From Roseivirga sp. (GTDB lineage Bacteria > Bacteroidota > Bacteroidia > Cytophagales > Cyclobacteriaceae), in NCBI GenBank assembly GCA_029262895.1, contig JAJCYM010000045.1:62001-126000 (forward strand): DNA of 64,000 nt. Reading direction: 5' to 3'. The translations under genes were made by a program, and so were the position numbers. The notes under the pieces are model-generated. The model ran no database searches. It saw only the letters and a list, made by a program, of their open reading frames with translations, and was not told the DNA's origin. The stretch's first letter is position 1. Each line of letters opens with the position of its first letter. Below, in pieces: positions 31,137-33,415 of the stretch.

Positions 31137-31283
31137 ATGCTTTCATTAAGACAATGCGAACGAATTTTGAATCGCAATAACAAAGAATACAGCCAAGACG
31201 AAGTGCAAAAAATCAGCGATTTTTTACATGACATGGCTGAAATCAATATCGAGATTATTAATGAAAACCAATTTGATCAGTGA
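31137..31283 (+). CDS. small hypothetical protein coupled to recombinase
   Basis: A 48-residue protein from the ATG at 31137, with an upstream TTG at 31101 in frame. It is helical and acidic (EVQKISDFLHDMAEI). Its TGA overlaps the recombinase GTG start (GTGA), so translation of the two is coupled. It could be a recombination directionality factor or regulator; no evidence beyond position. Confidence 0.5.
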   Translation: MLSLRQCERILNRNNKEYSQDEVQKISDFLHDMAEINIEIINENQFDQ

Positions 31284-32842
31284 GAACCGCCATCCTATAT
31301 ACAAGAGTAAGTACCGATGAACAGGCCGATAGAGGTTATAGCCTCTTAGACCAAAAAGACCGTTTAGAGAAATATTGTGAACTGAAAGGCATTGAAGTGC
31401 TTGTTCATTTTACAGATGACTATTCGGCAAAGAACTTTAATCGACCTGGCTTTGTGGATTTATTGCAATACATGAAGGCCAATAAAAAGCATATTGATGG
31501 CCTGCTCTTTGTGAACTGGTCACGCTTTAGCAGGAATACAAATGACTCTTATGCCATGATTGATAAACTCAATCGGGTAGGCATTGTTCCCCAAGCGATT
31601 GACCAGCCTTTGGATATGGAGGTTCCTGAGAATAAGCTTATGCTGGCTTTCTATTTGGCTTCGCCAGAAGTCGATAATCACAGACGATCACTCAATGTCA
31701 TTAAAGGTATGAGGCGTGCCCAAAAAATGGGTAGGTATCTGGGTATTGCTCCATTTGGTTATCATAATAGGAAAGATGAGAAGGAAAGACCGATTCTGGT
31801 GCCCGATGAAAACGCAGCATTATTGGTTCAGAAAGTTTTTGCAGAAGTGGCTAAAGGCATTGGAACCCGTGAGTCCATTCGTGAAAAGTATTTCTATAAG
31901 GGATTGGTGCTTCAGAAGTCTCAGTTCTATCGAATGCTTCACAATCCGGTTTACATTGGCAAGGTGATCGTGAAAGCCTATAAGGATGAATCAGAAGAGT
32001 GGGCAGAAGGAATTCATACTCCAATTCTGAATGAGAGTCTGTTTTGGAAGGTGCAGGAACTAATCAAAGGAATTCAACAGACCAATAATCGCCCGAAGGT
32101 CAATAAGCTCCGTGATGCTTTACCTCTTCGTGGATTTTTGATCTGTCCTAAATGCGGAAGACATCTAACAGGGAGTAGTAGCAAGGGTAATGGCGGTAGG
32201 TATACTTATTACCATTGCCAGAAGAAACTGGGGTGCTCAGAGAGACAAAAGGCAGAGCAGGTGAACGAAGCGTTTCAGGATGTATTAAACGAATTGTGTA
32301 TCAAGCCTGAGGTTAAGGAATTATATAATCTCGTTCTAAAAGACTCACTCTCTGAATCACGTAAGTCCGGTAAAAAGAAAGCCAAAGAGCTTCAACAGAA
32401 AATAGACAAGTTAAGCGGTCGGTTGGAACGTCTTCAAGATATGCTCGCTGATGGTGAGATAGATTCAGGTGAATTCAACCTAATCAAAAGTCGCTATCAA
32501 AAAGAGTTGTTGAAAATGAAGGCTGAAAAACGGGAAATGCTTGGAGTGGATAGTTCCTTTGAAAAAGAGCTTGATTTTGGATTGAATTTACTTGAAAGCT
32601 TACCTGATTTGTATGAAACAGCCAATACTGAGAACAAACAAAAGATTGTTGGTTCGATATTCAAAGGAACTTTTATTTATGAAAATGAAGCATATCGAAC
32701 CATTGAATTAAACGAGGTTGTAAAACTTATCTCCTTGAAAACAAATGGGTTAGAAATACGAAAACCGGAACTTCAAGGCACACTGCTTGAAGATTCCGGT
32801 TTGGTAGTCCGTAGGGGAATCGAACCCCTGTTACCAGGATGA
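31280..32842 (+). CDS. large serine recombinase
   Basis: A 520-residue protein with GTG start. Resolvase domain residues 1-150: YTRVSTDEQ with the Ser nucleophile (Ser11), then NWSRFSRN with its Arg. A recombinase domain follows (about 160-260), a zinc ribbon CPKCGRH...YYHCQKKLGC (about 292-320), and a coiled coil (about 355-430), the layout of integrases such as those of phages and mobilisable transposons. The final 14 codons lie inside tRNA-Glu on the opposite strand, showing the integrated end of the element. Serine integrases usually use non-tRNA sites, so this position is notable. It probably mediated insertion of the outer element. Confidence 0.9.
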   Translation: MRTAILYTRVSTDEQADRGYSLLDQKDRLEKYCELKGIEVLVHFTDDYSAKNFNRPGFVDLLQYMKANKKHIDGLLFVNWSRFSRNTNDSYAMIDKLNRVGIVPQAIDQPLDMEVPENKLMLAFYLASPEVDNHRRSLNVIKGMRRAQKMGRYLGIAPFGYHNRKDEKERPILVPDENAALLVQKVFAEVAKGIGTRESIREKYFYKGLVLQKSQFYRMLHNPVYIGKVIVKAYKDESEEWAEGIHTPILNESLFWKVQELIKGIQQTNNRPKVNKLRDALPLRGFLICPKCGRHLTGSSSKGNGGRYTYYHCQKKLGCSERQKAEQVNEAFQDVLNELCIKPEVKELYNLVLKDSLSESRKSGKKKAKELQQKIDKLSGRLERLQDMLADGEIDSGEFNLIKSRYQKELLKMKAEKREMLGVDSSFEKELDFGLNLLESLPDLYETANTENKQKIVGSIFKGTFIYENEAYRTIELNEVVKLISLKTNGLEIRKPELQGTLLEDSGLVVRRGIEPLLPG

Positions 32843-32876
32843 AAACCTGGCGTCCTAACCCCTAGACGAACGGACC
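32802..32876 (-). tRNA. tRNA-Glu (TTC)
   Basis: A complete 75-nt cloverleaf including encoded CCA (complement of 32802-32804). Acceptor GGTCCGT pairs with ACGGACT with one G-T pair; anticodon loop TTTTCAT gives anticodon TTC; the T loop is TTCGATT. The last 41 nt of the serine recombinase gene overlap its 3' part antisense. It is last in a leftward tRNA operon with tRNA-Ser. Confidence 0.95.
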
Positions 32877-32888
32877 AACATATAAATG

Positions 32889-32973
32889 CAGAGGAGGAGG
32901 GATTCGAACCCCCGGTACCTCGCGGTACAACAGTTTTCAAGACTGCCGCATTCGACCACTCTGCCACTCCTCT
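32889..32973 (-). tRNA. tRNA-Ser (TGA)
   Basis: An 85-nt class II tRNA with a long variable arm (TACCGCGAGGTA hairpin). Acceptor AGAGGAG pairs fully with CTCCTCT; the discriminator is G; CCA is not encoded. Anticodon stem-loop CAGTCTTGAAAACTG gives anticodon TGA. It lies 12 nt from tRNA-Glu and 2 nt from the GIY-YIG stop codon. Confidence 0.93.
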
Positions 32974-32975
32974 GT

Positions 32976-33218
32976 TTAAATAATTTCTTTTTCCTTCAAG
33001 AATCGATATCCTTCGATTGACTTGAAAAATAGTTCTCTTCTAAAAGCTTCTGACTTAGTTTCATATTCTTCAAAATATAAAACCATCCAAGGTCTTTTGC
33101 TTTTAGTAGATCTCACTTTTCCTTGATTATGAGCCCTCAATCTCTTATTGAGATCTTTGGTATGATCATAATAGTGAGTTTGGTCTACTTCAGTTTTTAA
33201 AATATAGGTAAAGAACAT
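32976..33218 (-). CDS. GIY-YIG domain protein between tRNA-Ser copies
   Basis: An 80-residue single-domain protein of the small GIY-YIG (UPF0213-like) type. The first motif is FTYIL, then [16 protein letters not shown] where YYxGHT/YVGxT is usual, so the Gly of the second motif is Asp; RLRAHN carries the conserved Arg, and a Glu lies in [10 protein letters not shown]. Such proteins can be nucleases of mobile introns or cassettes. Its gene sits exactly between a truncated and an intact tRNA-Ser in the same operon, and is read from the tRNA promoter. This suggests a cassette that inserted into tRNA-Ser and rebuilt it. Confidence 0.8.
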
Positions 33219-33265
33219 ATTTCCTTACTTTTTGAACCCCCGGTACCTTGAGGTACAACAGTTTT

Positions 33266-33287
33266 TCCCGAAGGGATCCCTTTGGGG
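33266..33287 (-). repeat. 22-nt double-hairpin element, copy 1
   Basis: Lies in the anticodon loop of the tRNA-Ser remnant. Read on the minus strand it folds as two adjacent mini-hairpins: CCC-AAA-GGG, then TCCC-TTC-GGGA. It matches copy 2 at 19 of 22 positions. Confidence 0.8.
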
Positions 33288-33302
33288 CAAGACTGCCGCA
33301 TT

Positions 33303-33324
33303 TCCCGCAGGGATCACTTTGTGG
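33303..33324 (-). repeat. 22-nt double-hairpin element, copy 2
   Basis: Lies in the D loop of the tRNA-Ser remnant. On the minus strand it folds as CAC-AAA-GTG, then TCCC-TGC-GGGA. Two of the three differences from copy 1 fall opposite each other in the first stem and keep it paired; the third is in a loop. Confidence 0.8.
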
Positions 33325-33355
33325 CGACCACTCTGCCACTCCTCTGTGTGTGATC

Positions 33356-33367
33356 TCCCGTTTGGGA
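33356..33367 (-). repeat. single mini-hairpin at the tRNA operon start
   Basis: TCCC-GTTT-GGGA forms a 4-bp stem like one half of the double-hairpin elements. It lies between the -7 element and the tRNA-Ser remnant. Confidence 0.5.
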
Positions 33368-33370
33368 CTG

Positions 33371-33399
33371 CAAAGATAGCTGTAATTTCTTTTTAGCAA
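33371..33399 (-). promoter_or_regulatory. canonical promoter of the tRNA operon
   Basis: On the minus strand, TTG (33397-33399) and TATCTTTG (33371-33378) are 18 nt apart, matching the Bacteroidota consensus. It drives the tRNA-Ser remnant, GIY-YIG gene, tRNA-Ser and tRNA-Glu leftward. Confidence 0.75.
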
Positions 33400-33415
33400 A
33401 AACTGTGTTCTAAAA

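Follow-up and report, generated by a model that had tools for sequence, protein, structure and literature searches.

A hairpin-tagged tRNA copy beside a GIY-YIG gene

In the 64,000-nt stretch of Roseivirga sp. DNA analyzed here (the window), a small GIY-YIG nuclease gene stands between two copies of a tRNA-Ser(TGA) gene, and the displaced one of these copies is interrupted by two 22-nt double hairpins. The same combination, a displaced tRNA (once tmRNA) copy with at least one hairpin, usually a double hairpin, was found at all 32 of the nuclease loci that we were able to judge. The reading we favor, which we would place a little short of even, is that the arrangement is a tRNA-targeting GIY-YIG cassette, composed of the nuclease and a duplicated tRNA-Ser, whose displaced target copy is disarmed by the hairpins.

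All features of the locus lie on the minus strand, where the order from 5' to 3' is the displaced tRNA-Ser copy (33231..33345), directly followed by the 80-aa GIY-YIG gene (32976..33218; PF01541, E 6e-14), then the intact tRNA-Ser(TGA) (32888..32973) and tRNA-Glu (32802-32876). The nuclease gene between the two copies was absent from the preliminary description of this DNA, which had reported two 22-nt insertions in a tRNA-Ser remnant. Alignment to the intact tRNA-Ser gives the same two insertions at the same places. One, TCCCGAAGGGATCCCTTTGGGG at 33266-33287, lies in the anticodon loop after tRNA nt 36 and splits the anticodon (nt 35-37) as TG^A; the other, TCCCGCAGGGATCACTTTGTGG at 33303-33324, lies in the D loop after nt 21 (GGTCG^AATG). 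The displaced copy otherwise has 3 mismatches to the intact gene and stops in the T loop, so that it is 3'-truncated and covers nt 1-71 of 86. We considered a tRNA intron and set it aside, as one insert (after nt 36) falls within the anticodon, nothing of the copy is left beyond nt 71 and an intact copy is present.

In sibling species the same flanks enclose a single uninterrupted tRNA-Ser, followed by tRNA-Glu, and thus the element-free site is found in close relatives. In one such sibling (L051), a single continuous stretch matches both window 33325-33400 and window 32804-32975. Because the sibling flank is continuous with a single tRNA-Ser, the native 5' flank can be assigned to the displaced copy and the native 3' side, where tRNA-Glu is the adjoining neighbor, to the intact copy. 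A single mini-hairpin at 33356-33367 had been noted as a third hairpin, but as the same sibling shares it while having no second tRNA-Ser copy, we assign this hairpin to the native 5' flank and do not count it.

At the position of the YYG that the remaining rows of our nuclease alignment (A4) share, the window nuclease reads YYD, and it may therefore be inactive. A large open reading frame on the plus strand (31280-32842), serine-recombinase-like to judge from its start, runs with its last codons into the tRNA-Glu gene, which suggests that a second, separate integrative element may be present at the neighboring tRNA.

The inserts are kept as two hairpins

The two inserts agree at 19 of 22 positions, and each consists of two 4-bp triloop hairpins. 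One difference (position 6) falls in a loop, while the other two (positions 14 and 20) face each other in the second stem, as C-G in one copy and A-T in the other, just as the preliminary description had it. Its suggestion of a constraint on folding gains support from 25 tRNA-located inserts, in which 93.0% of the cells assigned to pairs by the two-hairpin model are paired and five of the eight pairs have changed on both sides. The covariation score of this model is 0.290, against 0.120 for shuffles, with none of 500 shuffles scoring as high and versions slid along the alignment reaching at most 0.122. The 22-nt alignments (A1-A3) were partly gathered by similarity to the window sequence, with the strand picked for each row, and are thus biased toward the window, a bias that the loci found by way of the nuclease do not share; the larger set of 200 occurrences discussed below, in which sites had to score as paired, was left out of the covariation.

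A single long palindrome is not supported by covariation as the conserved structure, since it is equaled by 178 of 500 shuffles on percentage paired and by 344 of 500 on score (22 of 500 on pair types). On RNA energies alone, the palindrome is the more stable fold for many copies, and thus it is comparison rather than energy that backs the two hairpins. Removal of the inserts can restore a recognizable gene: when the three inserts of the displaced copy in one genome (G092, locus L155) are excised, ARAGORN accepts the remainder as a tRNA-Ser.

Hairpins at every judged nuclease locus

The nuclease alignment was scanned against 196 genomes of the family, 395 of the phylum and 321 of the order, which are overlapping samples, and scoring extended to 14 first-look candidates per genome in the phylum scan and to 17 in the order scan. 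The model consists of nine rows, all from loci reached via the hairpins or the window region, and mostly of genes beside hairpins. At a cut-off of E<=1e-28, with tandem genes counted once, there are 33 distinct loci, 10 in the family, 21 more in the phylum and 2 more in the order, eight of them being rows of the model itself. One (G087) lies at a contig end where it cannot be judged. The remaining 32, all with hairpins in the displaced copy, comprise 13 that earlier searches had already reached and 19 new ones; L280, L339, L351 and L359/L360 were judged by eye, and in L280 and L339, where the stretch holds no intact tRNA, the displaced copy is called from tRNA-Ser-like sequence.

The hairpins lie at recurrent sites, which for the most part are TTC^GAA (T loop), TG^A or CG^A (anticodon) and nt 20-22 of the D loop. 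For tRNA-Ser copies, a script found the D loop occupied in 13 of 26, the anticodon loop in 19 of 26 and the T loop in 22 of 27, after removal of twelve locus ids that repeat the same places. In each of these classes two rows (L353) represent two different intact tRNA-Ser genes aligned together, two L359 rows are not counted as inserts since their hairpins replace stem strands, and L065 is scored as an anticodon-loop match despite a 22-nt insert that does not form hairpins. The real misses are the anticodon loops of L283, L344 and L362 and the T loop of L362, a copy with a D-loop insert alone, 2 mismatches in its whole length and about 55 nt uninterrupted. At the other extreme, some displaced copies hold up to three hairpins. 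Two loci depart from the usual form. In L351 the GIY-YIG gene lies directly behind a tmRNA gene (1124-1486 by ARAGORN, within a region spanning 1124-1810), and the T loop of a displaced tmRNA 3' end holds a double hairpin of 20 nt (1772-1791); in L359/L360 two single hairpins stand in place of the anticodon-stem and T-stem strands.

With hairpins at all judged loci and at recurrent loop sites, random decay is a poor explanation, and it is more probable that the hairpins serve some function or share a cause. Redundancy of the tRNA does not by itself attract them, as in one genome (G010) three intact tRNA-Ser genes follow one another in tandem, spaced by about 30 nt and with no gene between, and contain none. 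The displaced copies themselves stay close to their hosts. In all 13 distinct tRNA-Ser(TGA) rows the displaced copy differs less from its own intact tRNA than that intact tRNA differs from the median of other species, although in four rows, the window included, the intact tRNA of some other species is nearer still. The displaced copies therefore either derive from the host or are kept similar by conversion, whereas their hairpins vary both between and within loci.

Shape persists while sequence and length vary

Most double hairpins are 22 nt long, with others of 18 nt (G772, G453), 20 nt (G023, G802) and 27 nt (G854), one 44-nt insert that amounts to two times 22 (G617) and, outside the set of 33 loci, one of 30 nt (L178). 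Less regular inserts measure 35 nt (G580), 42 nt (G794) and 58-60 nt (G556). The two-hairpin shape persists across loci through this variation in sequence and length: of the 20 inserts at loci newly found in the phylum and the order, 13, including two near-identical copies in one genome (G798), give a double-hairpin parse that beats 99% of shuffles of their own letters. Among 73 distinct inserts of 15-64 nt, 26 fail the double-hairpin parse at the 5% level, and in a test that accepts one or two hairpins, 48 of 74 inserts of 12-100 nt beat 95% of shuffles. The D-loop inserts of three genomes (G000, G196 and G217) have a CAC/GTG stem in common, which hints at common descent; another (G028) has a different insert one base away.

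Thirty loci were returned by the nuclease scan of the family, and ARAGORN finds a tRNA in 27 of them, whether Ser, Arg, Leu, Ala, Asn, Asp or Gly. Where the nuclease belongs to another GIY-YIG subfamily, next to tRNA-Arg, Leu, Ala or Asp, the displaced copies have hairpins of other families. The hairpins beside these lower-scoring nucleases lie in D or T loops or at the borders of the copy, and include a 20-nt CCTG...CAGG form, a 27-28-nt form beginning CCCGCCCG..., in one to three tandem units, and a 16-nt form, TCCCGATGTATCGGGA. As several of the longer inserts do not beat shuffles on a simple stem score, we claim these less strongly. In five displaced tRNA-Arg(CCT) copies (L287, L290, L293, L294, L296) the D loop contains 27-28-nt hairpins of the form CCCGCCCGGNTGAC...GTCGGACGGG, again one to three in tandem.

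A proposed disarming of the displaced target

An intron or intein disrupts its own homing site, and we take this as the model for the cassette. In comparison with the siblings, the original 5' part of the tRNA gene stands displaced on the upstream side, with an intact tRNA downstream. The displaced copy keeps its native flank and target sequence, and the double hairpins in the D and anticodon loops would disrupt it, hiding it from the cassette's own nuclease so that the cassette could persist. The shape of the hairpins might be maintained by selection or by the way in which inserts form, with sequence free to change, and hairpins might enter by being copied from other hairpins, by being made at a break, or by both routes. 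While the anatomy of the locus, the element-free sibling site, the places of the inserts, the covariation, the rule at 32 of 32 loci in this sample and the target preference are observed, we infer the nuclease activity, the disarming, the selfish spread and the origin of the hairpins; what leads us to prefer disarming is that the displaced copies are host-derived or conversion-kept while their hairpins differ.

Several points count against it. The intact copy has the same tRNA sequence, and therefore any protection would have to come from the flanks or the context. A single hairpin ought to suffice for disarming, but as many as three occur, and some copies leave loops free. Hairpins at sites that are not tRNA-like, and T-loop remnants with no GIY-YIG match in the fetched stretch (both described below), also weigh against disarming, as do the YYD of the window nuclease, the 26 inserts that fail the double-hairpin parse and the make-up of the nuclease model. 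A mobile element and protection against recombination are serious rivals, and it may be that all three are partly true together.

We think it possible, though we hold the idea loosely, that these loci represent an unrecognized selfish class in bacteria, in which GIY-YIG cassettes capture tRNA and tmRNA genes, replace them with an intact gene and tag the loop tips of the displaced original with hairpin pairs defined by structure and free in sequence, so that the shape of the mark rather than its sequence would be inherited. In the open-access literature we found no description of a bacterial hairpin-tagged tRNA in combination with a GIY-YIG gene. The arrangement brings together three subjects that are usually treated separately, namely insertion into tRNA genes, GIY-YIG nucleases and tiny hairpin repeats. 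If the rule holds, it provides a natural series of inserts alike in shape rather than sequence, with which one could test in culturable bacteria how small hairpin elements originate and spread, and it offers a simple way of finding such cassettes, by a second, hairpin-tagged tRNA copy beside a GIY-YIG gene.

Double hairpins away from tRNA genes

The hairpins might alternatively be independent mobile mini-elements of about 22 nt, inserting at TTY|SAA and often into hairpin loops, with displaced tRNAs as mere unprotected landing pads; we regard this as rather unlikely, although much of what we found outside tRNA genes speaks for it. Exact 22-nt copies occur in 19 stretches of the genome collection, in genomes as far apart as Marivirga aurantiaca (8 stretches), contigs labeled Balneolaceae (3) and Desantisbacteria (2). 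A covariance model of the form finds matches in at least 66 of 395 phylum genomes, 60 of these outside the window's class, counts that are floors because 20 candidates were scored per genome and strict filters applied. The 200 occurrences in fetched loci reduce to 119 distinct flank sets, of which 96, from several genomes, are not tRNA-like. Over all 119 the target preference is TTY|SAA (T 58%, T 74%, C/T | C/G, A 66%), and the 96 are similar. Of these 96 non-tRNA-like sites, 24 lie in loops of existing hairpins, compared with 7.5% of positions 62-200 nt away (score 14). We saw no target duplication with the dispersed 22-nt form.

Copy number within single genomes is uneven. One genome (G148) does have many dispersed copies, with 27 pattern matches at 24 places. 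There the 22-nt double hairpin is part of a longer repeat (L078-L091, with sequences the same as those of the Marivirga aurantiaca loci), in which it lies between GAATTC and CATRTG, often shortly upstream of an ATG. Both contigs labeled Candidatus Desantisbacteria, far from the Bacteroidota, hold exact 22-nt double hairpins (L112 and L116), and that of L116 adjoins the loop of an existing hairpin.

The window genome has two copies rather than many. With up to 3 mismatches, the 22-nt pattern matches the window at the two inserts alone (0 matches in 100 shuffles) and the 5.79 Mb assembly at six more places, five of them in a different, longer repeat and one (L004) seemingly by chance. All four rows returned by the covariance model, with 150 of 1310 first-look candidates scored, are the two inserts on either strand. 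Dispersal of the hairpins within their own genome was thus rejected, as of nine matches to a 13-nt half pattern two are the inserts and five lie in the different repeat. That repeat, separate and of about 100 nt, has TCCCGTAGGGATCTTTTTCAGC or something near it as its core and no second hairpin; five copies were seen (L003, L005, L006, L007, L008, around 1501).

The model was also searched in 14 genomes, with 150 candidates scored in each and a cut-off of E<=0.05. In five (G017, G023, G066, G092, G217) there are matches outside the displaced copy as well as in it, as the mobile-element reading would have it. In six, however, all 10 places lie in the displaced tRNA-Ser copy (two each in G000, G028, G050 and G173, one each in G078 and G196), so no donor is seen in these genomes; weaker matches elsewhere occur in G050 (E 0.22) and G196 (E 0.08). 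The remaining three (G005, G008, G087) have no match at this cut-off. Moreover, sites of this kind are also filled by double hairpins of unrelated sequence, and the tandem intact tRNA-Ser copies of G010 were spared.

The preliminary description had proposed a mobile structured element, which would be refuted if the two copies in the window were the only ones in all related genomes. Further copies exist, and their stems covary; the exact copies and the dispersed ones with their target preference favor mobility in part. An element defined simply by its sequence does not fit, because six of the 14 genomes confine their matches at E<=0.05 to the displaced copy, unrelated double hairpins are found at the same kind of site, and the hairpins are tied to GIY-YIG genes.

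Allowing up to 3 mismatches, the pattern matches 113 of 196 family genomes, most probably by chance; in 20 hand-picked regions the hairpin lies in a tRNA copy in five (L153, L154, L155, L156, L162), and regions such as L151 and L152 resemble coding sequence. A pattern for anticodon-loop inserts matches 43 of 390 genomes, and of the 50 places among the matches listed, only three are in tRNA-Ser by their matched sequences, all exactly 22 nt long and hairpin-shaped. Remnants of tRNA 3' ends with double hairpins in the T loop were also seen beside intact tRNAs (L321 and L327, Glu; L323, Pro; L328, Ser; L308, Thr; L312, Gly); they are tandem in L323, L327 and L328, and none of the six fetched stretches has a GIY-YIG match.

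Carriage by viruses or plasmids was considered and rejected, as two exact patterns have no match in viral contigs. Among 72,556 plasmid records, 3 have a match to the window nuclease, as do 7 among 50,697 phage records, all of them distant (<60% identity).

Spacers, fused ends and RNA as possible alternatives

Direct repeats of a tRNA a few hundred bp apart would tend to delete the cassette between them, and one might suppose that the survivors are those whose homology has been chopped by inserts, the hairpins serving as anti-recombination spacers. Palindromic inserts escape mismatch repair in heteroduplex DNA, as work in yeast has it, and would last for this reason. Uninterrupted matches between copies are indeed often short, 11-34 nt in tRNA-Ser rows and up to 57 nt for tRNA-Arg, and the closeness of displaced copies to their own intact tRNA is what repeated conversion would cause. 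Point changes or plain insertions would be equally effective, however, with no need for a strict position or a paired-hairpin shape; a single insert would be enough, while two or three are present in several copies, and L362 retains its long uninterrupted stretch. We consider spacers improbable as the main explanation.

The double hairpin might instead be the fused terminal hairpins left by excision of a larger element that transposes as a single strand, or a pair of hairpins that became attached to either side of a break before the ends were joined. Such a process would leave similar hairpins in a back-to-back pair, inserted flush with no target duplication, and some longer inserts have partly inverted ends (96 nt in L285, 64 nt in L287). 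On the other side, no full-length parent was encountered among the loci examined, and viral contigs gave no match to the two exact patterns, so we think this origin quite improbable. Least probable of all, and very much so, is that the hairpin-bearing copy acts as an RNA, such as a leader that keeps tRNA processing enzymes off the nuclease transcript: the tRNA stems of displaced copies are largely preserved, a cloverleaf reading places the 22-nt inserts in loops or between stems and in one case (L281, after nt 76) at the T-stem foot, and the window copy is directly upstream of the nuclease gene, but a stable tRNA-like RNA is not supported for that copy, whose fold is no more stable than those of shuffles (z -0.89), and elsewhere the displaced part is downstream of the nuclease gene (e.g. 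L277, L278, L195).

Relation to known elements

Repetitive hairpin-forming elements are known from sponge mitochondria, in an account that also cites the double-hairpin elements of Allomyces (PMC2800124). Those elements, like the inserts described here, are small adjacent hairpins with conserved stems and variable loops, in both non-coding and RNA-coding stretches. They differ from ours, which are few in number, lie in a bacterial chromosome, are tied to a displaced tRNA beside a GIY-YIG gene, and have stems that change in a compensatory way and vary widely in length. By the general mark of a mitochondrial double hairpin, two adjacent hairpins kept by compensatory change, the 22-nt inserts qualify, but their setting is a prokaryote assembly rather than an organelle genome.

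Cyanobacterial small dispersed repeats, attributed to Elhai (2008), are reportedly tiny palindromic repeats with no genes of their own. REPINs, too, are very small palindromic repeats that spread without their own genes, according to a paper on REPINs and RAYTs (PMC3116915). Whereas they are present in high copy number with an associated Y1 tyrosine transposase, here there are two copies in the window genome, in tRNA loops, and the neighboring nuclease is GIY-YIG.

Free-standing GIY-YIG homing endonuclease genes share with our cassette a GIY-YIG gene, a sibling site free of the element, and a partly duplicated target with one intact copy. The insertion in atp6 of Allomyces is said to be a free-standing homing endonuclease gene of this kind that duplicates part of its target gene. 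The window protein has the GIY-YIG catalytic domain, with YYD for YYG, and relatives have the element-free site, as expected of such a gene. Unlike these genes, the present cassettes have a tRNA or tmRNA as target and a displaced copy that is hairpin-tagged at recurrent loop sites. The same domain is found in small GIY-YIG proteins such as Bacillus YazA, an annotated match; the matches in the plasmid collection have 39-40% identity over 84% of the window protein.
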